This document shows, in pieces, positions 9,621 to 27,131 of a stretch of DNA of 64,000 nucleotides. The position numbers were made by a program, and so were the translations under genes. The stretch is taken from the NCBI RefSeq assembly GCF_029892045.1, contig NZ_CP120367.1, positions 1,550,001 through 1,614,000 of the forward strand. Direction: 5' to 3'. The stretch is from Sinorhizobium numidicum (GTDB lineage: Bacteria > Pseudomonadota > Alphaproteobacteria > Rhizobiales > Rhizobiaceae). The first letter of the stretch is position 1, and each line of letters starts with the position of its first letter. The notes under the pieces were generated by a model, which worked only from the letters and a program-made list of their open reading frames with translations, did no database searches and was not told the origin of the DNA.

Positions 9621-10049
9621 ATGACCGAAGTCAATAACGGCGACGTCGTTCGCATTCACTATACGGCCAAGCTGACGGACGGCTCAGTGATCGACTCTAC
9701 TCAAGGCCGGGAGCCGCTTGAATTCCAAGTCGGTGCGGGCCAAATCATTGCCGGGCTCGATCGCCAGATCAGCGGCATGGCGGTCGGAGAAATGAACACG
9801 GTCACCATACCGGCAGAGGAGGCCTATGGCCCTCACGATGACGCCAAAGTGCAGACGCTGTCGCGTTCAGTGGTTCCCGATGGGGTAGAGGTCGGGACCA
9901 GACTTCAGGGAACTGCCTCGGATGGACATCAGATGGCACTCACCGTTACGCGGGTCGATGACGAACAAGTGACGGTAGACGCCAATCATCCGTTTGCCGG
10001 CCAGGATCTGGTCTTGAACGTAACCGTCGTGGAAATCCTTAGTGCGTAG
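9621..10049 (+). CDS. SlyD-type FKBP peptidyl-prolyl cis-trans isomerase
   Basis: A 142-residue cytosolic FKBP. The N-terminal half has the FKBP core (VVRIHYTAKLTDGSVIDST, PLEFQVGAGQIIAGLD, GEMNTVTIPAEEAYG). An inserted chaperone flap of SlyD type follows (about residues 72-118), and then the characteristic VDANHPFAGQDLVLNVTVVEI ending. It catalyses proline isomerisation during folding. It lacks the histidine-rich metal-binding tail of enterobacterial SlyD. It stands alone between two gaps. Confidence 0.92.
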   Translation: MTEVNNGDVVRIHYTAKLTDGSVIDSTQGREPLEFQVGAGQIIAGLDRQISGMAVGEMNTVTIPAEEAYGPHDDAKVQTLSRSVVPDGVEVGTRLQGTASDGHQMALTVTRVDDEQVTVDANHPFAGQDLVLNVTVVEILSA

Positions 10050-10666
10050 AGCGTTGCCACAGCGGCTCATTCGATCGGCTTTGCGTCCGGTGCGGGGCTT
10101 GAGCTCCAATAATTCCGCGGAGGTCAGTTTCAGGTCAATCGACTTGCGCGGTTAGCGGCCGTCGCAGAGGAGGCTGCTCGCCTCGTCGAGCGACTTGTTG
10201 AAGATGGAGCCGACCTGCCACCGAACCGCAGCTAAGCGATTGTCATCTGGCAGTCGGTGGAGACCGGGTTGGCGAGAGCACGAGCCCGATAAGTAGGCGT
10301 CGCTGACGAACCAGAAAACTAGAACGGCGGAACTGGTGACGTAAACGCTGATTTCGCTCACCCAATTCGTCGCACCGCGATACCTTCCCGCGACCGCCCC
10401 ATAGGCGTCGTTGCGGCTTCCTAGGAACGTCACCAAGAAGAGGACGACGGCAAACACTTTGCCAAGCCTTCCTCACCTTGGGGTGTTGCTTTGCATGACA
10501 GCGCAACGGGAGGCTGGTTCAGGCCTCCGCCTGCTTCGCTCCGCCAGCGGCGGAGTCGAAAACGGAATTTGCATTTCGCGTCCTTCCGGACGACACCGCC
10601 ATCCTGCCAGCCTTTGGAGGGTCGCTTGCGTCGGACATGCCTGTTCCTTCCGCGCTGCCCAAGCGA
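10050..10666. other. gap with one weak ORF
   Basis: About 600 bp. A minus-strand frame at 10152-10457 (101 residues) begins with a hydrophobic stretch (MFAVVLFLVTFLG) and holds a second one (VYVTSSAVLVFWFVSDAYL), so a small membrane protein is possible. The remainder of that frame and the ribosome site are unconvincing. Nothing else is seen. Confidence 0.3.
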
Positions 10667-13087: not shown

Positions 13088-13978
13088 GTGGATTTGGCGG
13101 AAAGTAAGATTGTCGAACGAGCGATCTACCAGCCGGGTGCCTGCAGCATCGAGGGCATGCCGACCCGGCTGCATTTCTTCCATGCCCATCCCCCGATCAT
13201 GCTGCGCGCGCATTGGCATGCGCAGATCGAAGTAAACTACGTGATGCGAGGATCGGTGCATTATCGCATGGCCGGCCATGATCTCAGGCTCGGCGCAGGA
13301 CAGATATGTCTGTTCTGGGGCGGACAGCCGCACAGGATGGACGAATCCTCCGACGATTCCATCTATGCCGGCGCTCATCTGCCGCTGGTGCATTTCTTCC
13401 GCATGCGGCTGCCGCCGGCAATCTCGGCAATGCTCATGGGCGGCGGTTCGATGCTGACGTCCGAGGCGGATTGTGCCGACGACCGGAATTTTCCGCGCTG
13501 GCGTAGCTGGGCTAATTCCGGAGACGAGGTCAAGGCCCAACACGCTGTGGAAGAACTGCTGCTGCGCATCGAACGAATGTTTATGGAGCCTTACACGATC
13601 GTTTCGTCCGGCAAAAAATCCAAAGCCGAGAGCGCCTCGGCCTCGCCTTCGCTAGGCGTCGTGCGTATGTGCGATTTCATCGCTGCAAATTTTCTCGAGG
13701 AGATCGATGCGGTGAGTATCGCCGCCGCAGCCGGATTGCATCCGAAATACGCTATGAACCTGTTTCGCAAGTCGACGGGCATGACGCTGATCAAGTACGT
13801 GACCCTGCTGCGTCTTTCGCGGGCGCAAGCCATGCTGATAAATGGCAACGACAGCATTCTGCAGGTGGCGATGGATAGCGGCTTCGGTTCGGTGAGCGCC
13901 TTCAACAAGGCTTTCCGCCAGATCGCCGGCATGCCGCCTTCGGATTTCCGCCGCGACGTTCGCGCCGCGGCTAGGTGA
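13088..13978 (+). CDS. AraC family transcriptional regulator
   Basis: A 296-residue regulator. The N-terminal cupin-type sensing domain (about 25-130) contains ARAHWHAQIEVNYVMRGSVHY and GAGQICLFWGGQPH, as in sugar-responsive AraC proteins. The C-terminal region (about 190-290) carries two helix-turn-helix motifs, with IAAAAGLHPKYAMNLFRKSTG in the first and DSILQVAMDSGFGSVSAFNK in the second, followed by the PSDFRR ending. It is transcribed away from the decayed ATPase and the oxidoreductase fusion, its probable former or present targets. Confidence 0.92.
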   Translation: MDLAESKIVERAIYQPGACSIEGMPTRLHFFHAHPPIMLRAHWHAQIEVNYVMRGSVHYRMAGHDLRLGAGQICLFWGGQPHRMDESSDDSIYAGAHLPLVHFFRMRLPPAISAMLMGGGSMLTSEADCADDRNFPRWRSWANSGDEVKAQHAVEELLLRIERMFMEPYTIVSSGKKSKAESASASPSLGVVRMCDFIAANFLEEIDAVSIAAAAGLHPKYAMNLFRKSTGMTLIKYVTLLRLSRAQAMLINGNDSILQVAMDSGFGSVSAFNKAFRQIAGMPPSDFRRDVRAAAR

Positions 13979-14130: not shown

Positions 14131-14400
14131 ATGACGGAGCGACATCAGTGCCACTTCCGGGAGCGCATGACGATCCGTGGCGATCTTGATGCCGCCTCCT
14201 TCGTTCCCTGGATCCGGCGGCATGCCGCCAAGCTCGGGCTCTCGCAGGCCATATCCCATGCCGGTTCCGATCGGGTTGAACTCGAGGTCGCCGGACCGGC
14301 GGAGCTGATCGACATGATGGAGATGGGATGCTTGCTCGGGCCCATCGACGTGTGGGTCGAAACGATACACCGCACACCGATCGACGGCGGAAGCGACTAA
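14131..14400 (+). CDS. acylphosphatase-fold small protein, catalytic residues not evident
   Basis: An 89-residue protein whose order of strands and helices (RMTIRGDLD, helix FVPWIRRHAAKLGL, then DRVELEVAG, helix AELIDMMEMG, LGPIDVWVETI) matches acylphosphatases. The usual active-site loop GxxGxxxR and the catalytic Arg/Asn pair are not visible, so enzymatic activity is doubtful. The gene is followed directly by an inverted repeat that may end transcription. Confidence 0.6.
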   Translation: MTERHQCHFRERMTIRGDLDAASFVPWIRRHAAKLGLSQAISHAGSDRVELEVAGPAELIDMMEMGCLLGPIDVWVETIHRTPIDGGSD

Positions 14401-14434: not shown

Positions 14435-14659
14435 ACGTTTTCATTGCCTGTCGTTCCCAAAAACGCAGCGTATTCTTTGGGCGACATGCATGACGCCACG
14501 AACGGCTCTTTTCACCGTTCGGTCATCCACTGCCCTTTATTTGATCAATGTTGCCAATGCGGAATTATTATGCAAACGTGAGGCACTGAGCAGCAAGCCA
14601 TCGGTATCGACTTTGGATTTGCACCAATAAGCCATTGATATTGTTGAGAAAGTTTAATT

Positions 14660-15313
14660 ATGCTGTTCGACACGACGGGCTCTTGGACGCCAGTCGCCCT
14701 TTCCGCGGATTTGCCCGCAGGAACCGTGATGCCGGCACGGACACCCGCCGGGCCGATTGCCCTCTGGCGAAGCCAATCGGGGCGTGCGGCCGCATCGGCG
14801 GACCGTTGCCCACATCGCGGCATGCGCCTGTCTCACGGCTTCGTGCGTGGCGAGGCCCTTTCCTGCATCTATCACGGCTGGAGTTATGCGCGAACCGGAA
14901 ACTGTCTGCGCATCCCGGCCCATCCAGGTCTCACGCCGCCGGAAACGATCCGCGTAGGAACGCATGAGGTCGAAGAGTCCGACGGGGTCATCTGGGTTGC
15001 CGACGGAGAACCCGCGGCTGAGCCCCCGCGGCTTGAAGGCGTCGCTCCACTGCGCTCACTGACGGCACATGCCAGCGTTGCCGTGCTTGAGGCCGCGGCG
15101 GACGCGAAGGCCGGTCCCGAGGGCCTTGTCTGGCAGGCGCAAAATTCTCAGACAATCCGACTGCTGCTTGTCCCGCAGGAGGACGATCAGACGCTGATCC
15201 ATGTTCTACTGGACGATAAAAGCAGTCCATCCCAGCGCATCGCCGCGTCACGTGCCGTCGAGACCTTGCGGCGGAAGGCCGAAGATCTTCATGTGAAAGG
15301 CATCGCGCCATGA
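14660..15313 (+). CDS. stand-alone Rieske [2Fe-2S] ferredoxin-domain protein
   Basis: A 217-residue protein with an N-terminal Rieske domain. The cluster ligands are clear: C50 and H52 in CPHRGMRLSHG, C69 and H72 in CIYHGW. The surrounding sequence is that of oxygenase-type Rieske domains. There is no catalytic iron domain; the last 85 residues are an alpha/beta extension of unknown role. The stop overlaps the start of the next gene by 4 bp (ATGA), and that gene encodes the missing catalytic half. I infer that it passes electrons to the product of the next gene. The reductase is not encoded in the cluster. Confidence 0.88.
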   Translation: MLFDTTGSWTPVALSADLPAGTVMPARTPAGPIALWRSQSGRAAASADRCPHRGMRLSHGFVRGEALSCIYHGWSYARTGNCLRIPAHPGLTPPETIRVGTHEVEESDGVIWVADGEPAAEPPRLEGVAPLRSLTAHASVAVLEAAADAKAGPEGLVWQAQNSQTIRLLLVPQEDDQTLIHVLLDDKSSPSQRIAASRAVETLRRKAEDLHVKGIAP

Positions 15314-16158
15314 CGCAAGATGCGATGATCGACGAGTGGTATCCGGTCGGCCTCTTCAGCCAGCTCGACATGCACGGACGCAAGACCGCTCTGATGGGCG
15401 AGGCAATCGAGGTGGCGCTTGACGCCGGGGGCAACGCCAAGGTGACATGCGGCGATGGGCGGCGCGCCCTCCCCGTTTGCGTGCGCTATGGCCACGTCTG
15501 GTCCTCTCGCGGCAAACCGCGGAAGGATCTTTTCGCCATTCCCGAGGCCGATCAGCCCGGCCGCCGATTTGTCGATGTCGGCGTGGTTCGCGTGCGCTGC
15601 TCCCCGTTGCGCGCGGTGGAGAACTTTCTCGACATCGCGCATTTCCCCTTTGTGCACACCGACATCCTGGGCGCAGAGCCGCACACGGAGGTCCAGAACT
15701 ACAAGGTCGACATCCGGCAGGAGGAGGATGAGGTCTGGGCAACGCAGGTTAAATTCTACCAGCCGCAAGCTGCGAAATCGGCAAGCGGCGGCATCACGAC
15801 CGAATACATGTACCGCGTGCCGGCGCCGACCTGTTCCGTCCTTTACAAGACGTGTCCGCCCCGCCCCGGTGAATGGGACGTCATAACCCTTTTCGTTCAG
15901 CCGCTCGCCGAAGATTTGTGCGACGTTTGGCCGTGGATGGCGCTCTTCGACGATGTCACGCCGATGACCGACCTCATCCACTTTCAACAGACGATCTTCC
16001 TGCAGGACCGGTCGATCCTTGAAAACCAGATCCCCCGGCTCCTGCCACTCGATCCCGGAATGGAAATTCCCACACGAGCCGACCTGACTTCGGTCGCCTA
16101 TCGACGCTGGCTGAAACGCCACAACTACACATATGGCGCACAGTTGGTGGCGCAATGA
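15310..16158 (+). CDS. Rieske-less aromatic-ring oxygenase catalytic subunit (NdmC-like)
   Basis: A 282-residue protein corresponding to the catalytic half of Rieske non-haem iron oxygenases. Ligands to the mononuclear iron are seen as H111 and H116 in ENFLDIAHFPFVHT, with bridging D108, and probably D233 in LQDRSILENQ. The N-terminus (IDEWYPVG) starts as in full oxygenases, but the CxH...CxxH Rieske cluster is absent. In Pseudomonas putida NdmC, a 7-methylxanthine N7-demethylase subunit, is likewise Rieske-less and works with the GST-like NdmE. Here a Rieske protein lies directly upstream and a GST directly downstream, both overlapping by 4 bp, so the same type of complex is inferred. The substrate is not proven. 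Confidence 0.85.
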   Translation: MTQDAMIDEWYPVGLFSQLDMHGRKTALMGEAIEVALDAGGNAKVTCGDGRRALPVCVRYGHVWSSRGKPRKDLFAIPEADQPGRRFVDVGVVRVRCSPLRAVENFLDIAHFPFVHTDILGAEPHTEVQNYKVDIRQEEDEVWATQVKFYQPQAAKSASGGITTEYMYRVPAPTCSVLYKTCPPRPGEWDVITLFVQPLAEDLCDVWPWMALFDDVTPMTDLIHFQQTIFLQDRSILENQIPRLLPLDPGMEIPTRADLTSVAYRRWLKRHNYTYGAQLVAQ

Positions 16159-16814
16159 AGCTCTACAACTATGTTCTCTCGCCCAGCTGCTACAAAGTGC
16201 GTCTGATGGCGGCACTGACCGGCGTGAAGCTGGAAATCAGGGCGGTGGACTTTCATCCCGGCACCGAGCATCGCGGCCCTGAGCTCATGGCGCTCAATCC
16301 GGCGGGCTCCATCCCGATCCTGGAGGATGGTGACCTGATCCTGACCGAATCCGCAGCCATGCTCGTCCACCTTGCCGCACAGGCGGCGCCGGAGTGGCTC
16401 GGCAGCGGCACACCGGAGGAAACGGCGCGCATCCAGCAGTGGCTTTCGTTCTCGCATCGGCTGACCACCAGCCTCGGAGGCGCGCGCCTTCACGAAATGC
16501 TCCCCCGTCCGGGGGACATCGCCGCACTTCAAGCTGAGGGCATCGCAGCGCTTCGCGAGCTGGAAGCGGGCCTGGTCGAGCAGGGCCTGCGCGGCATGCG
16601 GTTCCTCGCGTCGAACCGGCCGACGGTTGCTGATATCGCCTGCTTTCCTTACGTGGCACTCGCGCCCGACGGCGGCATCCCGCTCGACCCCTATCCGGCC
16701 ATCAGGCTCTGGTCCCGCGCAATCCGCGGCCTCGAACACTTCATCGAGATGCCTGGGATTCACCGGCTGCACGAGCTGAAGCCTGAACCTGATGTCGAAC
16801 CGGGGGAGGTTTGA
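16155..16814 (+). CDS. glutathione S-transferase-like protein (NdmE-like by context)
   Basis: A 219-residue GST with the thioredoxin-like N-terminal domain (MKLYNYVLSPSCYKVRL, then NPAGSIPILEDGDLILTESAAMLVHLA) and an all-helical C-terminal domain with the conserved RPTVADIACFPYVA. It could be a catalytic GST. Because its start overlaps the stop of the Rieske-less oxygenase gene, I prefer the role of NdmE, a GST homologue that is a structural partner of NdmC. The stop is followed within 2 bp by the start of the amidohydrolase gene. Confidence 0.85.
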   Translation: MKLYNYVLSPSCYKVRLMAALTGVKLEIRAVDFHPGTEHRGPELMALNPAGSIPILEDGDLILTESAAMLVHLAAQAAPEWLGSGTPEETARIQQWLSFSHRLTTSLGGARLHEMLPRPGDIAALQAEGIAALRELEAGLVEQGLRGMRFLASNRPTVADIACFPYVALAPDGGIPLDPYPAIRLWSRAIRGLEHFIEMPGIHRLHELKPEPDVEPGEV

Positions 16815-16815
16815 C

Positions 16816-18195
16816 GTGCCCGGTTACCTGTTGCGGAACTGCGCGGCGATCATCGCGGACGACGGCAAGGGGCCGACCGCCTACCGCAACGTAGACTTGC
16901 TGACGAATGGTCCTGCGATAGAGGCAATCGGCGAAAACCTTCATAAAGGCCAGCTGCCTGCCGGTACGATCACGCAAGACGCCACCGGCTGGTTCGTATA
17001 TCCGGGCCTCATCAACACGCACCACCACTTCTTCCAGTGCTTCGTGCGCAACCGCGCAGATCTCGATTGGACGAAGCTTTCGGTGATCGAATGGCTCGAC
17101 CGTATCTATCCGATCTTCTCGCGGCTGACCGAGGACTGCTTCTACCATGCCTCGCTCACGGCAATGGCCGAGTTGGTCAAGCACGGCTGCACCACGGCGC
17201 TCGACCACCAGTACTGCTTCCCGCGGCACGCCGGCAAACGGCTGATTGACCGGCAGTTCGAGGCCGCTGACCTTTTGGGCATGCGCTTCCATGCGGGGCG
17301 TGGCGGCAACACGCTGCCGAAATCCGAAGGCTCGACCATTCCGGACGCCATGCTGGAAACGACGGACGAGTTCATCGCCGACTGCGCGCGCCTGATCGAC
17401 ACCTATCATGATGCCGACCCCTTCAGCATGCGGCAGGTCGTCGTCGCGCCGTGCCAACCGGTCAACTGCTACCGTGAGACTTTCGTCGAGTCGGCGGCGC
17501 TGGCGCGCGATCGCGGCGTGCAACTGCACACGCATGTGGGCGAAGGCGAGAGCCCGGTCGTCGAGGCCCGGCACGGCATGCGGACGGTGGATTACTGCGC
17601 GGAGCTCGGATTTGCCGGCCCCGATACCTTCTATGCCCATTGCTGGGAACTGACCCATGACGAACTGCGAACGATGGCCGCGAGTGGAACCGGTGTCGCT
17701 CACTGCCCCGAGCCAGTCTATCTGGTCGGCGCCGAGGTGACGGATATTCCGGCCATGTCGGCCTTCGGTCTCCGGGTGGGTCTCGGCTGTGACGGAGCTG
17801 CCTCGAACGACAATTCAAACCTGATGCACTGCGTGCACTCCGCCTACATGCTGCAGTGCCTGAAAGCGTCGACGCGCGCGCATGCCGTCCCGCCCCCGGT
17901 CGATTTCCTCGACTATGCCACGGCCGGTGGTGCCGCCCTCCTAGGCCGCCGCGACATCGGTCGGCTCGCCCGCGGCATGGCCGCCGACCTATTTGCAATC
18001 GACACACGGCGGATGGACTTTGTCGGTACACGGCATGATCCGCTGAGCCTGATTGCCAAAGTGGGCATCGGCATGCCGACCGACATGACCATGATCAACG
18101 GCCGCATTGTCTGGGCCAAGGGTGAATTCATCGGGCTCGACGAGGCGCGGCTGTTCGCGGAGGCCGAGGCCGCTCTCGCCACAGTGGAACTTTAA
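16816..18195 (+). CDS. amidohydrolase of the 8-oxoguanine/isoxanthopterin deaminase type
   Basis: A 459-residue metal-dependent hydrolase of the deaminase branch of the amidohydrolase superfamily. Metal and catalytic residues are visible: the strand-1 motif INTHHHFF (HxH), the His of THVGEGE with its following Glu, a later His in FYAHC, and the Asp of GLGCDGAASND. Homologues in this branch deaminate 8-oxoguanine, isoxanthopterin or chlorinated triazines. I choose the GTG at 16816 because GGGGGAGG lies six bases before it; an in-frame ATG at 16792 would start inside the GST gene. The gene is followed by a nucleoside-type ABC importer, which favours a purine or pterin substrate. Confidence 0.85.
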   Translation: MPGYLLRNCAAIIADDGKGPTAYRNVDLLTNGPAIEAIGENLHKGQLPAGTITQDATGWFVYPGLINTHHHFFQCFVRNRADLDWTKLSVIEWLDRIYPIFSRLTEDCFYHASLTAMAELVKHGCTTALDHQYCFPRHAGKRLIDRQFEAADLLGMRFHAGRGGNTLPKSEGSTIPDAMLETTDEFIADCARLIDTYHDADPFSMRQVVVAPCQPVNCYRETFVESAALARDRGVQLHTHVGEGESPVVEARHGMRTVDYCAELGFAGPDTFYAHCWELTHDELRTMAASGTGVAHCPEPVYLVGAEVTDIPAMSAFGLRVGLGCDGAASNDNSNLMHCVHSAYMLQCLKASTRAHAVPPPVDFLDYATAGGAALLGRRDIGRLARGMAADLFAIDTRRMDFVGTRHDPLSLIAKVGIGMPTDMTMINGRIVWAKGEFIGLDEARLFAEAEAALATVEL

Positions 18196-18217
18196 TACAC
18201 AAAACAGGGGAACTGAC

Positions 18218-19318
18218 ATGCTGACAAACCTGACCCGAAGAACACTGATGAAGGGCGTTGCCGCCTCCGGCCTCGCCAGCGCGGTCGGCGGCCGGTCCAC
18301 CATGGCCGCCGATGAGCCGCTCGGGATCACTCTCGTGATCCCCTCGCCGGTCGGCGACGTCGGCTGGGGCCATGCGCTCGCCGCCGGCCTCGAGCCGGTC
18401 AAGGCCGCTTACGGCGACAAGGTGAAGGTCACCGTCATCGAGAACATTCAGGAAGGTCCGGACGCCGACCGCATCATGAACAAGACGGTCGCCGACGGGA
18501 ACAACTTCCTGATCGCAGGCTCGTTCGGCTATCAGAACGGCGCTCTGCAGATCGCTCGCCGGAATCCGGCCGTCACCGTGCTGCATGCCTCCGGTTTCCA
18601 GGTGGCTCCGAACTTCTCGCCTTTTGCGGCCAAGTATTTCCAGGGGACCTACCTGCTCGGCATGGCTGCCGCGGCGCTCTCCAAGACCGGCAAGCTGGGC
18701 TCGGTATCCGCCTTCGCCATCCCGGAGCTGATCACGTCCGTCAACGCCTTCACGCTGGGCGCCCAGGCGGTGAACCCTGATATCGAGGTGTCAGTCGTAT
18801 GGGTGAACTCGTGGTTCGACCCGGCCAAAGAGCAGGAAGCGGCAAAGGCTCTGATCGCGCAGAAGTGCGACGTGATCTTCTCAAACGCGCAGGACACGCC
18901 TTCCGTTATCTCTGCCTGCGAGGAGGCTGGCGTCTACGCGTTTAATCTCAACTCGTCGATGAAGAGCTACGCTCCGAAAACCTATCTCGGCTGTGTGGCG
19001 ACGGACTGGTCGCCTTTCTTCAAGGCCTCGGTCGACGCCCATGTCGCCGACACATTCAAAGGTGCCAATGCCTTCCTCGGCGTCGCCGACAAGGTCGTCG
19101 AGGTCGTCGACTGGAATCCGGATATCCCGGCCGATGTCATGACGAACATCAAGGAGATCGAAGCGAAGATCGCCGCCGGCAGCTTCTCGCCTTTCACCGG
19201 GCCGATCACCAGGGCGGACGGCAGCGAAGCGGCCGCCTCCGGTGCAACGCTCACCGATGGCGAGATCGTCGCGATGGACTGGCACGTCAAGGGCATCACC
19301 ACACCTCTGCCGAAGTGA
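18218..19318 (+). CDS. BMP family nucleoside/purine-binding lipoprotein-type substrate-binding protein
   Basis: A 366-residue periplasmic binding protein of the BMP/Med family. The N-terminus has a twin-arginine type signal (TRRTLMKGVAASGLASAVGG), and cleavage near residue 32 gives a mature protein starting around ADEPLGITLVIPSP. BMP proteins feed nucleosides or purine bases to ABC importers such as NupNOPQ of Bacillus. The ATG at 18218 follows an AGGGG site; the frame upstream belongs to the amidohydrolase region. Three transporter genes follow immediately. Confidence 0.9.
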   Translation: MLTNLTRRTLMKGVAASGLASAVGGRSTMAADEPLGITLVIPSPVGDVGWGHALAAGLEPVKAAYGDKVKVTVIENIQEGPDADRIMNKTVADGNNFLIAGSFGYQNGALQIARRNPAVTVLHASGFQVAPNFSPFAAKYFQGTYLLGMAAAALSKTGKLGSVSAFAIPELITSVNAFTLGAQAVNPDIEVSVVWVNSWFDPAKEQEAAKALIAQKCDVIFSNAQDTPSVISACEEAGVYAFNLNSSMKSYAPKTYLGCVATDWSPFFKASVDAHVADTFKGANAFLGVADKVVEVVDWNPDIPADVMTNIKEIEAKIAAGSFSPFTGPITRADGSEAAASGATLTDGEIVAMDWHVKGITTPLPK

Positions 19319-19321
19319 GCC

Positions 19322-20845
19322 ATGACCGCTCCGCTCCTGTCGCTCCGCGCCATTTCCAAAAGCTACGGCCAGATCCATGCCAATCAAGGTATCGATCTGG
19401 ACGTGGCGCCACAGTCTATCCATGCGGTCCTCGGAGAGAACGGGGCGGGCAAATCGACGCTGATGAAGCTGATCTACGGCGTCGAGCAGCCAGACGACGG
19501 AACCGTCGTCTGGGAAGGAGAGCCTTTAAGCCTTGCCTCCCCCGCGGAGGCGAGGCGCAAGGGGATCGGCATGGTGTTCCAGCACTTCTTGCTCTTCGAT
19601 ACCCTGACGGTCGTGGAGAACATTCAACTGGTCGTACCCGGCCGGAAAGCCGATCTCATGGAACGCATCCGGACGTTTGGACGCGACTTCGGCCTCGAAG
19701 TCGATCCGCTCGCCCATGTGCACGCGCTTTCTGTCGGCGAGCGGCAGCGGGTGGAGATCATCCGATGCCTGATGATCAAGCCGAGGCTGCTGATCCTCGA
19801 CGAACCCACCTCCGTCCTGCCGCCGCAATCGGTGGACAAGCTCTTCGATACCCTGCGACGTCTGCGCGACGGCGGTGTTTCCATCCTGTTCATCTCGCAC
19901 AAGCTCGAGGAAATTCGGGCGATCTGCGACAGGGCGACGATCCTGCGCGGCGGGCGCGTCACCGGCCACGTGGACCCGCGCGAACACAATGCGCATGATC
20001 TTGCCCGCATGATGATCGGCCGCGACATGCCGGAGCCGATGCCGGCGCTTCCCCAGTCTGGCGGAGAAAAGCGGCTTGAGATCATCGGCCTGGCCTATCG
20101 GCCGGATGACCCCTTTGCCGTGCCGCTCTCCAACATCAGCCTCACTGTACGTGCTGGCGAAATCCTTGGAATAGCCGGGATTTCGGGTAACGGGCAAAGC
20201 GAGCTGGCCGCGTTGATATCCGGCGAAGCGGTCCTGCCGCGGGAACAGCGCGACCGGATCTACATGATGGGCAAGGATGTCGGCACGCTCGATGCGGCTG
20301 CCCGTCGGCAGCTTGGATTTGCGTTCGTCCCCGAAGACCGGCTCGGACGCGGCGCCGTACCTGAAATGTCGCTCGTTCTCAACAGCCTCCTGACCGCGCA
20401 TCCGCTCGGCCTGCTCAGGCATGGTCTCGTCGACAAGGCGAAGGCGAAGGCGTTCACCAACGAGTGCATCCGTCAATACGATGTCCGCACGCCGGGCCCG
20501 GACGCGGAAGCCGGCGCGCTCTCCGGCGGCAATCTGCAGAAGTTCATCGTCGGCCGCGAGATCATGCTCTCTCCGAAACTGCTGTTCGTGGCGCAGCCGA
20601 CCTGGGGCGTCGACGTCGGTGCCGCATCCGCCGTCCGCAGGCGGCTCGTCACGCTGCGCAATGAGGGCATGGCCATCCTCGTCATTTCCGAGGAACTCGA
20701 GGAGCTTTTCGAACTCTGCGATTCCATCCAGGTGCTGCACCACGGCACGCTGAGCCCGCCACTCGTCACACGGGACACGCGACCCGAGGAGATCGGCCGA
20801 TACATGATCGGCGCTCATCCTTCGCGCGGGAAGGCCCTGGCATGA
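19322..20845 (+). CDS. nucleoside-type ABC importer ATPase (two nucleotide-binding domains)
   Basis: A 507-residue protein with two ABC cassettes. The first has Walker A GENGAGKS, signature LSVGERQRVEI and Walker B LLILDEPTSVL. The second has a changed Walker A (GISGNGQSE), signature LSGGNLQKFIVGRE and a Walker B region LLFVAQPTWGVD, as is usual for sugar and nucleoside importers of the YufO/RbsA type, where only the first site is active. It starts 3 bp after the binding-protein stop and overlaps the first permease gene by 4 bp. Confidence 0.93.
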   Translation: MTAPLLSLRAISKSYGQIHANQGIDLDVAPQSIHAVLGENGAGKSTLMKLIYGVEQPDDGTVVWEGEPLSLASPAEARRKGIGMVFQHFLLFDTLTVVENIQLVVPGRKADLMERIRTFGRDFGLEVDPLAHVHALSVGERQRVEIIRCLMIKPRLLILDEPTSVLPPQSVDKLFDTLRRLRDGGVSILFISHKLEEIRAICDRATILRGGRVTGHVDPREHNAHDLARMMIGRDMPEPMPALPQSGGEKRLEIIGLAYRPDDPFAVPLSNISLTVRAGEILGIAGISGNGQSELAALISGEAVLPREQRDRIYMMGKDVGTLDAAARRQLGFAFVPEDRLGRGAVPEMSLVLNSLLTAHPLGLLRHGLVDKAKAKAFTNECIRQYDVRTPGPDAEAGALSGGNLQKFIVGREIMLSPKLLFVAQPTWGVDVGAASAVRRRLVTLRNEGMAILVISEELEELFELCDSIQVLHHGTLSPPLVTRDTRPEEIGRYMIGAHPSRGKALA

Positions 20846-21942
20846 GCGCTTTTTCTGCAGCCTTCCTTCCCACTCTTGTCCGCCGGGAGCGCGCCTCGCT
20901 TGCCGCGACGCTCCTTGCGCCCCCCGTCGCATTGGCCGTGGCGACCGTTCTCAATCTCGGGCTCTACGTCCTGATGGGCCGCGATCCGCCCGCCGTCCTG
21001 TACGCGATGCTTCTCGAGCCGTTCCTGTCCTGGGCGTCGTTCTCAGAGGTGCTGCTGAAGACGGGTCCCCTCCTCCTTATCGCACAGGGCCTCGCGATCG
21101 GCTTTCGAGCGAAGGTCTTCAACATCGGTGCCGAGGGCCAGTTCATCCTGGGCGCGATATTCGCCTCGTCCATCCCCGTCTGGTTTCCGCAGGCGACAGG
21201 TCAGTGGATCTGGCCGATGATGCTGCTCCTTGGCGCAGTCGGTGGCGCCCTGTGGGCATCGATTACCGCCTTCTGGCGCGTCAGACTCAATGCGAACGAA
21301 ATCCTCGTGTCCCTGATGCTAAGTCTCGTTGCCGCGCAGTTCCTCAACTACCTGCTCCTTGGCCCCTGGAAGGATCCCAACGGCTTCAACTTCCCTCAGT
21401 CCGTCATGTTCCAGTATGACGCGATGGTGCCGGTCCTGATTTCCGGTACCCGTGTAAACGTCTCGCTTCTCCTGACGATCGCCCTGTCGATTGCGGCATG
21501 GATCTTCATGCAGAAGAGCTTTGTCGGCTACAAGCTTCAGGTTGGCGGCCTCGCGCCGCGTGCCGCCGGCTACGCCGGCTTCAACCAAGGGTGGGCGATC
21601 TGGCTTTCCCTTCTGATAGGGGGCTGCGCGGCCGGCCTCGCCGGCGCAGCAGAGGTTGCCGGCCCCCTTGGCCAGCTACAGCGCTCGATTTCGAGCGGTT
21701 ATGGCTATGCGGCCATCATCGTTGCTTATCTCGGCGGCCTGCATCCGATCGGCATCGTTATCTCCGCGCTGTTCATGGCGATTCTCTACATCGGGGGGGA
21801 TAATGCCATGGTATCGGCAAACCTGCCGATCGCCGCGGTCCGCGTCTTCCAGGGCAGCCTCCTTCTCGCCTACCTCATCGCCGTCGCCTTCGTGCGGTAT
21901 CGTCTCGCATGGCGCCGTACCGCCTACCGGAGCCAGCCATGA
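20842..21942 (+). CDS. nucleoside-type ABC importer permease 1 (YufP-like)
   Basis: A 366-residue inner-membrane protein with about ten hydrophobic helices. It carries the family stretch FNIGAEGQFILGAIFA and, near the C-terminus, GYGYAAIIVAYLGGLHPIGI, both typical of BPD_transp_2 permeases that partner BMP proteins. It overlaps the ATPase gene upstream and the second permease gene downstream by 4 bp each, so all are translated as one operon. Confidence 0.92.
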   Translation: MSAFSAAFLPTLVRRERASLAATLLAPPVALAVATVLNLGLYVLMGRDPPAVLYAMLLEPFLSWASFSEVLLKTGPLLLIAQGLAIGFRAKVFNIGAEGQFILGAIFASSIPVWFPQATGQWIWPMMLLLGAVGGALWASITAFWRVRLNANEILVSLMLSLVAAQFLNYLLLGPWKDPNGFNFPQSVMFQYDAMVPVLISGTRVNVSLLLTIALSIAAWIFMQKSFVGYKLQVGGLAPRAAGYAGFNQGWAIWLSLLIGGCAAGLAGAAEVAGPLGQLQRSISSGYGYAAIIVAYLGGLHPIGIVISALFMAILYIGGDNAMVSANLPIAAVRVFQGSLLLAYLIAVAFVRYRLAWRRTAYRSQP

Positions 21943-22850
21943 GCGCCATCGAGTTCATTCTTGCCGGCATGCTCGCGGCTGCGACACCGTATCTCCTCGC
22001 AGCTCTCGGCGAGCTGGTGGTCGAGCGAGCCGGGGTCCTCAACCTGGGCGTGGAGGGCTTGATGGCCCTTGGCGCGGTGCTCGCCTTCATCGTCGTCTAT
22101 CATGGCGGGGGGCACCTTCTGGGATTCGTTGCCGCCGGGCTAGGCAGCGCCGTCCTATCCCTGGTTTTCGCCGTCGTCACGCTCGGATTTCGGGCGAACC
22201 AGGTGGCGGCAGGCCTTGCTATAGGCATCCTCGGCCAAGGTCTCTCGGCGCTTTTCGGCAAGACCTATGAGAGCCTCACGATCAGGGGGCTTCCCAAGCT
22301 TGCCTTTCCATGGCTTTCCGAAATCCCCGTAATCGGCGGTCTTTTCATCCAGGACGTCGTCGTCTGGCTTTCCCTTGCCGCAGCCTTCGCCATTTGGGCG
22401 ATGTTTGCCTATACGAAGGTCGGTCTCGTCATACGGGCCATCGGCGAGAATCCCAAAGCCGCCCACGCCATTGGCTATTCGGTCATCACCGTCCGCTTCG
22501 CCGCCATCGCGTTTGGCGGCGCGATGGCGGGCTTTGCCGGCGCCTATGCGGCGGTGGTTTACACGCCGCTCTGGGCCGACGGGATGATCGCCGGGCGTGG
22601 TTGGATCGCGATCGCACTCGTCGTCTTCGGGACGTGGCTCACGGGCCGGATCTTCTTGGGGGCGTGCCTCTTCGGCGCCGTATCCCTGATGGGCCTCGCG
22701 GCCCAGGCGACCGGACTGGACCTTCCGTCACAACTGCTTGCGAGCCTGCCCTATCTCGTCACGATCATCGTGCTCGGCATCATTTCGGCAGACCGCCGCC
22801 TGCTGAAGCTCAACGGCGTGGCATCGCTCGGCGAACCATTCGAACGCTAG
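21939..22850 (+). CDS. nucleoside-type ABC importer permease 2 (YufQ-like)
   Basis: A 303-residue inner-membrane permease with about nine helices and the family signatures ERAGVLNLGVEGLMALGA and GENPKAAHAIGYSV. The ATG at 21939 overlaps the preceding stop (ATGA); the longer frame from 21909 would begin inside permease 1. It is the last gene of the seven-gene Rieske/deaminase/importer cluster and is followed by a stem-loop. Confidence 0.92.
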   Translation: MSAIEFILAGMLAAATPYLLAALGELVVERAGVLNLGVEGLMALGAVLAFIVVYHGGGHLLGFVAAGLGSAVLSLVFAVVTLGFRANQVAAGLAIGILGQGLSALFGKTYESLTIRGLPKLAFPWLSEIPVIGGLFIQDVVVWLSLAAAFAIWAMFAYTKVGLVIRAIGENPKAAHAIGYSVITVRFAAIAFGGAMAGFAGAYAAVVYTPLWADGMIAGRGWIAIALVVFGTWLTGRIFLGACLFGAVSLMGLAAQATGLDLPSQLLASLPYLVTIIVLGIISADRRLLKLNGVASLGEPFER

Positions 22851-26519: not shown

Positions 26520-27131
26520 ATGAAGCTCTACTATCATCCACTTTCCGGCCATGCGCATCGCGCCCGCCTCTTTCTCTCGCTGCTCGGAATCGAGCATGAA
26601 CTCGTGCTCGTCGATCTTGCCCGGAAGGAGCACAAGGAGCCGAATTTCCTCAATCTCAATCCGTTCGGCCAGGTTCCAGTGCTCGATGACGGCGGCACGA
26701 TCATCTGCGATTCCAACGCCATCCTCGTCTATCTCGCGAAAAAGACGGGACGCACCGACTGGCTACCGGAAGATGCCGAGGGCGCGGCGGCCATTCAGCG
26801 CTGGCTTTCGGTCGCCGCAGGCCAGATTGCCTATGGTCCGGCACAGGCGCGCCTCATCAACGTGTTCCAGGCGCCCTATCGGCCGGAAGAAGTCATTCCT
26901 CGTTCCCATGCGATCCTGACGCTGATCGAGGCCGCCCTCGAGGATAGGGACTGGATTGCCGCCGGCCAGCCGACCGTCGCCGATGTCGCGCTCTACAGCT
27001 ACGTGGCGCGCGCGCCGGAGGGCGACGTCGATCTTCAGCACTATTCGAACATTCGCACCTGGCTCGACCGCATCGAGGCGCTGCCGGGCTTCGTCGACTT
27101 CCAGAAGACCCCGGTGGGTCTGGCGGCCTGA
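26520..27131 (+). CDS. glutathione S-transferase
   Basis: A 203-residue cytosolic GST. The thioredoxin-like domain starts [20 protein letters not shown] and includes the glutathione-binding [27 protein letters not shown]. The C-terminal helical domain has [20 protein letters not shown]. It is divergent from a LysR gene and is followed 12 bp later by a PNPOx-like gene, so the two are probably co-transcribed and LysR-controlled. Confidence 0.93.

Follow-up and report, generated by a model that had tools for sequence, protein, structure and literature searches.

The window analysed here is a stretch of 64,000 nucleotides from Sinorhizobium numidicum (NZ_CP120367.1, positions 1,550,001 to 1,614,000). 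It carries an operon that joins a split Rieske oxygenase to a glutathione S-transferase (GST), an amidohydrolase of the predicted N2,N2-dimethylguanine hydrolase (NdmH) type and a BMP-family ATP-binding cassette (ABC) importer. Eight + strand genes, from the Rieske subunit to the second permease, have ends that overlap or almost touch, and a ninth conserved gene lies upstream. Hence the tight packing reported in a first-pass annotation of this DNA stands, but its count of seven genes does not. The genome has 6.72 Mb in three contigs and the window is on the 2.32-Mb contig.

14131..14400, + strand: small acylphosphatase-like protein, 89 amino acids (PF00708, 21.7 bits; cut-off 22.5)
14551..14575, + strand: inverted-repeat-like motif TTGCC.ATG-N-ATTATGCAA, candidate operator
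14660..15313, + strand: Rieske subunit (alpha-prime), intact [2Fe-2S] site and, in its model, a vestigial catalytic domain
15310..16158, + strand: NdmC-like catalytic subunit (alpha), PF19112, 43% to NdmC
16155..16814, + strand: NdmE-like GST-fold protein, GST_N/GST_C, 38.5% to NdmE
16816..18195, + strand: predicted NdmH-type amidohydrolase, AtzB relative (GTG start at 16816; open reading frame from 16792)
18218..19318, + strand: BMP-family periplasmic binding protein with a predicted AtzT-like pocket, PF02608
19322..20845, + strand: ABC importer ATPase, PF00005
20842..21942, + strand: ABC importer permease 1, PF02653
21939..22850, + strand: ABC importer permease 2, PF02653

When species genomes were scanned for relatives of the catalytic subunit, 188 stretches were obtained, of which the best 80 were kept. 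A survey of gene order in the Rhizobiales had been proposed in the first-pass annotation. Here, the eight genes are identical in order and strand in 79 of the 80 rhizobial loci, and in the exception (L060) the contig stops within the deaminase gene. This arrangement is more than chance. The GST gene adjoins the catalytic gene in all 80 loci, the ABC ATPase gene holds the same operon position in 79, and the acylphosphatase-like gene upstream of the eight-gene span is kept in 79. Two model strains possess the operon, R. etli CFN 42 and Rhizobium johnstonii 3841; in the latter, RL_RS29075, RL_RS29085 and RL_RS29090 are the catalytic, hydrolase and binding-protein genes. The closest named row to the window in a 71-row tree is an Ensifer.

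The two oxygenase proteins divide the metal sites between them. The Rieske protein has the cluster ligands C50, H52, C69 and H72, while the catalytic subunit has D108, H111 and H116, together with D233 as the third iron ligand. In the alignment, N105, D108, H111, H116 and D233 are kept in 149 of 151 catalytic-subunit rows, and the Rieske motif is missing from 150 of them, the exception (L163) being an unsplit relative. Among chosen rows the Rieske subunit is the more variable one, with 65–87% identity to the window protein against 82–93% for the catalytic subunit.

Structurally, both proteins match the fold of SxtT, GxtA and NdmA. The model of the Rieske protein is a whole oxygenase alpha-subunit with a stub of the catalytic domain at about residues 128–217, and the catalytic subunit appears in its model to retain a Rieske domain emptied of the cluster site. 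As modelled, alpha and alpha-prime look like complementary decayed halves of one ancestral alpha-subunit. The first-pass annotation had described a Rieske-only protein and a catalytic subunit without the Rieske domain; its metal-site residues are right, but a vestigial domain seems to remain in each protein.

By sequence, the catalytic subunit matches NdmC at 43% (E 1e-77), as against E 8e-10 for NdmA and E 3e-4 for NdmB, and the Rieske protein matches the N-terminal Rieske part of NdmD at 41% over 117 residues. The NdmA–E reference genes are those of a P. putida caffeine-type cluster, named by gene order and homology because the record lists generic products only. The operon GST matches NdmE at 38.5% (E 3e-53), as the first-pass annotation had supposed.

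In the 71-row tree, 42 split catalytic subunits group together in a single clade (96/84), with three caffeine NdmC rows next to them (95/90). In a 39-row tree, which is midpoint-rooted only, 15 Rieske-less subunits form one clade (100/100) nested in a group with 11 unsplit oxygenases (97/94), with HpxD and NdmA/NdmB outside. The proposed likeness to NdmC is thus borne out by a sister clade, and the closest relatives did not prove to belong to unrelated pathways. Full-length relatives with both metal sites exist, such as L163 with 371 codons from stop to stop. The splitting of the alpha-subunit looks like a single event.

The 11 unsplit loci include L178 though it is 5.8 kb long. Four further loci fetched as possible unsplit kin (L186, L187, L188 and L194) fell outside the clade and were excluded. 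A BMP protein is present in all 11 and a guanine deaminase-like gene in eight, and no GST was found beside the oxygenase in any of the 11. The deaminases of L163 and L189 exceed the GuaD cut-off, and L189 also has an adenosine deaminase.

A wider sample of 40 regions was hand-picked from 79 listed order-level matches, with most of the close ones left out; 24 are split, 11 reductase-fused and five other. GST is present on 24/24 split and 10/11 fused stretches, so in comparison with the unsplit loci it accompanies the split. The acylphosphatase-like gene is on 22/24 split stretches, 0/11 fused, 0/11 unsplit and 0/4 lone-catalytic ones, and therefore accompanies the standalone Rieske gene. It lies within 0.9 kb of that gene on the same strand in 20 split stretches, elsewhere on the stretch in L144 and L161, and is lacking in L142 and L162. 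Fisher p values, which ignore relatedness, are 9e-10 for GST with the split and 3.5e-11 for the acylphosphatase-like gene with standalone Rieske.

Some relatives are arranged otherwise. A kombucha Komagataeibacter plasmid (L082:7993-13483) bears two tandem split sets of catalytic, Rieske and GST genes, separated by a VanB-type reductase; an acylphosphatase-like gene precedes the Rieske gene of the second set. The pSymA replicons of S. medicae and S. meliloti (L085, L086) bear a fused NdmC-NdmD-NdmE-like set adjoining a BMP importer. The S. meliloti set has two catalytic genes, and the pocket of its binding proteins differs by E165 to D and N218 to M. In L137, L139, L141 and L150, a catalytic gene stands alone, without Rieske or GST, next to a different amidohydrolase gene and one resembling a molybdenum hydroxylase. 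In three of these four genomes, another locus holds a second catalytic gene together with Rieske and GST, as though a single Rieske–GST pair worked for two catalytic subunits.

The role of the acylphosphatase-like protein is probably not catalytic. The window protein, below the PF00708 cut-off and with no match among solved structures, has a homologue in L130 that exceeds the cut-off (30.2 bits). Acylphosphatase catalysis uses an Arg and an Asn. The Arg position is Leu in L130 when aligned to 4hi1, the Asn position is not kept there, and the Arg position is non-Arg in the printed alignment rows, window protein included. The sequences suggest that the protein probably is without the catalytic Arg and Asn, which favours a role in binding or assembly over a catalytic one.

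The hydrolase is best understood from N2,N2-dimethylguanine hydrolases that have been reported with 13 active-site residues numbered in the Pleomorphomonas oryzae enzyme (PMC13054789). The NdmH enzymes are active on N2,N2-dimethylguanine and poor on guanine, the AtzB homologues carrying CQNN prefer N2,N2-dimethylguanine, and the AtzB-cluster hydrolases cleave -NH2, -NHR and -NR2 groups (PMC13054789). With the GTG at 16816 taken as its start, the hydrolase of the window has 13/13 of the published poNdmH residues at the same numbers (CQNN and nine others). As a control, AtzB in the same alignment shows its published SSII in place of CQNN.

The window enzyme is 57.6% identical to AtzB and 78.9% to P0248, a P. 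oryzae amidohydrolase obtained by protein search. P0248 also has 13/13 residues and occurs letter for letter in L125 within the same eight-gene order; very probably it is the enzyme assayed in the NdmH paper. A simple pattern for the CQ..N and GGN motifs is matched in 79 of the 80 loci, not in L014. From its sequence, the window hydrolase is predicted to be of the NdmH type. The earlier assignment to an 8-oxoguanine/isoxanthopterin-type deaminase was right as to a guanine-type amidohydrolase but not as to the subtype. The enzyme scores 379 bits on the 8-oxoguanine deaminase model (NF006055, cut-off 532), where the L087 deaminase scores 604.7, and 118.8 bits on the guanine deaminase model (TIGR02967, cut-off 375.4).

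Other copies and relatives of the hydrolase were seen. A second copy (G000 C3:592758-593846; L094:961-2592) is N-terminally truncated and continues in frame from a transposase-like N-terminal part; it is 99% identical over residues 105–467. On a plasmid of Sinorhizobium garamanticum, a similar match is likewise partial and falls into two pieces. At the four positions of AtzB/NdmH specificity, the AtzB-like protein of Aminobacter sp. SR38 (L091:7932-9389) reads I/C/G/I, a set that matches neither CQNN nor SSII. An NdmH-type hydrolase that keeps CQNN also occurs in the gut anaerobe Pusillibacter faecalis (L092:2277-9380), together with a purine-nucleoside phosphorylase and a BMP importer; the annotation of the fetched stretch shows no oxygenase.

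The importer was first read as a BMP/YufOPQ nucleoside system that brings in a modified guanine-type purine, and its families as well as its nearest solved relative agree with this. That relative by sequence is AtzT (6pi5; E 2.5e-77, 36.8% identity). AtzT held guanine with a Kd of about 110 nM, the tightest of the compounds tested, and also binds 2-hydroxyatrazine, the alkyl groups of which are touched by N220 (PMC6834077). Five of the seven guanine-pocket residues (Y45, S97, F98, E165, W194, N218 and N220) are identical in the window protein; Y45 is changed to Trp, and N220 to Asp with a one-residue insertion nearby. The identity of AtzT to 3s99 was computed as 54.2%, matching the published 54%. 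The window protein is thus predicted to resemble the guanine-binding AtzT.

Glutathione-dependent formaldehyde dehydrogenase genes stand beside the relatives L157, L158 and L161 and are also part of two caffeine clusters, L081 and L083, which favours demethylation. In L161, the most complete relative operon with both a reductase and a formaldehyde dehydrogenase, the catalytic gene (9799-10473) looks short at its 5′ end. The own genome has three formaldehyde dehydrogenase copies elsewhere at 59–61% identity. An NdmD-like query of this genome matched the Rieske protein of the operon and, apart from that, just two reductases, each partially. Neither of these two was accepted as a dedicated reductase, as each has its highest score with the GbcB model, though below cut-off, and lies beside a GbcA-like oxygenase.

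Among the split stretches, 13/24 have a guanine-type hydrolase, as judged by best match, and 14/24 a BMP protein. The hydrolases are guanine deaminase in seven, 8-oxoguanine deaminase in four and NdmH in three, with two kinds in L136; of those checked against cut-offs, GuaD passes in L130, L146 and L163 and 8-oxoguanine deaminase in L087. The pairing of one oxygenase family with several guanine hydrolases indicates guanine derivatives. The own genome has two XdhB and two GuaD genes elsewhere, with XdhB over cut-off, so plain guanine or xanthine can be handled without the operon.

We therefore consider it probable that the operon serves the catabolism of a methylated guanine through import, oxidative ring N-demethylation by the split oxygenase and hydrolysis by NdmH. 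The gene set, the homologies, the kept and lost metal sites and the NdmH signature are seen in sequence or model; from them we infer the demethylation itself, a substrate, a demethylated position, an order of steps, a complex and an electron donor. The BMP/ABC importer would take up the methylated base. Alpha-prime would be reduced by a reductase encoded elsewhere and would hand the electrons on, over the boundary between the subunits, to the catalytic iron of the NdmC-like alpha, the route that ordinary oxygenase trimers use. The NdmE-like GST may hold the two subunits in register, and the acylphosphatase-like protein may assist the standalone Rieske subunit.

Because the AtzB-cluster hydrolases cut amine groups, a ring methyl is the expected target of the oxygenase, which would release it as formaldehyde, and the kinship with NdmC suggests N7 as the probable position. 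NdmH would hydrolyse the exocyclic N2-substituted amine to yield xanthine and dimethylamine, and the xanthine would pass to the cell's two xanthine dehydrogenase clusters. The first-pass annotation had likewise proposed import, demethylation and deamination of a modified guanine, and the kinship of the parts supports it; its plain 7-methylguanine is less likely, since NdmH is poor on guanine. The most likely substrate is a ring-methylated N2,N2-dimethylguanine, and best 2,2,7-trimethylguanine, which would be converted to N2,N2-dimethylguanine and then to xanthine. Equally possible is hydrolysis first, via 7-methylxanthine. The trimethylguanosine cap found on eukaryotic small RNAs and on nematode messages has 2,2,7-trimethylguanine as its base. 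2,2,7-Trimethylguanine is a natural product (PMC5793054).

Several points weigh against this pathway. As already noted in the first-pass annotation, the operon encodes no reductase; it encodes no formaldehyde dehydrogenase either, and these are on just 3/24 and 1/24 split stretches, respectively. Ten of the 24 are without a BMP protein and 11 without a guanine-type hydrolase. The catalytic subunit is poorly modelled, with a mean pLDDT of 59, so only the N-terminal strands of its model were used. A second window GST (26520-27131) is 36.8% to NdmE and 34% to the operon GST, so the GST match alone proves little. The AtzT guanine contact Glu165 is kept here, where it would have to accommodate an N2,N2-dimethyl group. 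Moreover, the unsplit kin could be ring hydroxylases, the four lone-catalytic stretches imply further roles for the family, and the whole reading rests on sequence and models.

The seven split loci with canonical guanine deaminase would also suit an operon for a mixture of RNA-derived bases, with the oxygenase acting on 7-methylguanine, or on 7-methylxanthine after deamination, and NdmH on N2,N2-dimethylguanine. The caffeine-pathway NdmC does act on 7-methylxanthine (PMC4408171), and the gut anaerobe pairs its NdmH-type hydrolase, importer and phosphorylase with no oxygenase on the fetched stretch. However, in place of guanine deaminase the window clade has an enzyme type with low activity on guanine (PMC13054789), and 79 of the 80 loci keep the eight genes together, so two separate substrates seem unlikely to us.

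We give still less credence to hydroxylation of the purine ring, for example at C8, as by the molybdenum-free xanthine hydroxylase HpxD. The guanine deaminase genes near unsplit kin, joined in L189 by one for adenosine deaminase, and the 8-oxoguanine deaminase-like genes in four of the 24 split loci, would accord with it. However, HpxD is outside the clade, NdmC, the closest relative of known function, is an N-demethylase, formaldehyde dehydrogenase stands beside some relatives and the host already has its two XdhB genes over cut-off. An operon for s-triazines or other non-purine heterocycles is very improbable, although the deaminase is 57.6% to AtzB, AtzT is the closest of the solved binding proteins and relatives are publicly named hydroxyatrazine ethylaminohydrolase. 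The window enzyme has CQNN where AtzB has SSII, CQNN homologues prefer N2,N2-dimethylguanine (PMC13054789), AtzT binds guanine tightest of the compounds tested (PMC6834077), and the operon is conserved across many rhizobia.

As to regulation, the inverted-repeat-like motif lies about 110 bp 5′ of the Rieske gene, is found with up to three substitutions in 79 of 80 upstream regions, and has only six matches elsewhere in 3.2 Mb on both strands; by sequence, it is a candidate operator. An AraC-like gene (13088-13978) was rejected as the operon regulator because it is not conserved, with weak local matches in 4/80 loci, and so was LysR, with a close LysR gene in just 6/80. A simple sigma-54 promoter pattern matched 0/81 upstream regions, and a defence-system library gave no match for four of the proteins.

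Tentatively, a bolder account can be given. Degradation of 2,2,7-trimethylguanine might be done by two complementary decayed alpha-subunits, one cluster-only and the other iron-only, for which a GST clamp and a non-catalytic adaptor of the acylphosphatase fold have evolved to hold the halves. The caffeine NdmC/NdmE would be a side branch, and NdmH, the supposed ancestor type of AtzB, would have its natural job in this operon. On the main reading, an alpha-subunit apparently cut once into complementary halves would offer a structural reason for the GST need of NdmC-type oxygenases. The operon of uptake, demethylation and hydrolysis also offers a testable native pathway for the P. oryzae protein with the NdmH signature and its window relative. 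It is a likely natural home for NdmH and its herbicide-degrading cousin in many root-nodule bacteria.

The open-access papers searched describe neither the standalone-Rieske form and its acylphosphatase-like partner nor the vestigial domain or the NdmH operon. Searches there for Rieske proteins with 7-methylguanine and demethylase, for rhizobial purine operons, for an acylphosphatase together with Rieske and GST proteins, and for 7-methylguanine catabolism likewise turned up no description of the system. Homologues of ndmCDE of unknown function, with the Rieske domain split off, were noted in Sinorhizobium and Mesorhizobium (PMC4408171). The physiological context of NdmH is still under investigation according to its discoverers, and the main text of their paper has no 'Rieske', 'transporter' or 'genome neighborhood' and does not describe the operon (PMC13054789).

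Compared with the known systems, the hydrolase shares all 13 residues with NdmH of P. oryzae (PMC13054789), the probable P0248, which has the same operon in L125, and it is like AtzB, the hydroxyatrazine ethylaminohydrolase, in overall identity but differs in CQNN versus SSII. The binding protein shares 5/7 pocket residues with AtzT (PMC6834077) but differs in overall sequence and by the Y45 and N220 changes. The full-length oxygenases SxtT, GxtA and NdmA are alike in fold but have both metal centres in one chain, unlike the window proteins, and HpxD, a purine-acting Rieske oxygenase by its record name, is full length and outside the window clade. The closest system is NdmCDE, the 7-methylxanthine N7-demethylase of P. 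putida (PMC4408171), a sister clade with the same Rieske-less catalytic subunit, separate Rieske unit and GST. Its Rieske unit is fused to a reductase in NdmD, whereas the Rieske of the window is its own gene without a reductase, and the window operon adds the acylphosphatase-like neighbour, the predicted guanine-type importer and NdmH.

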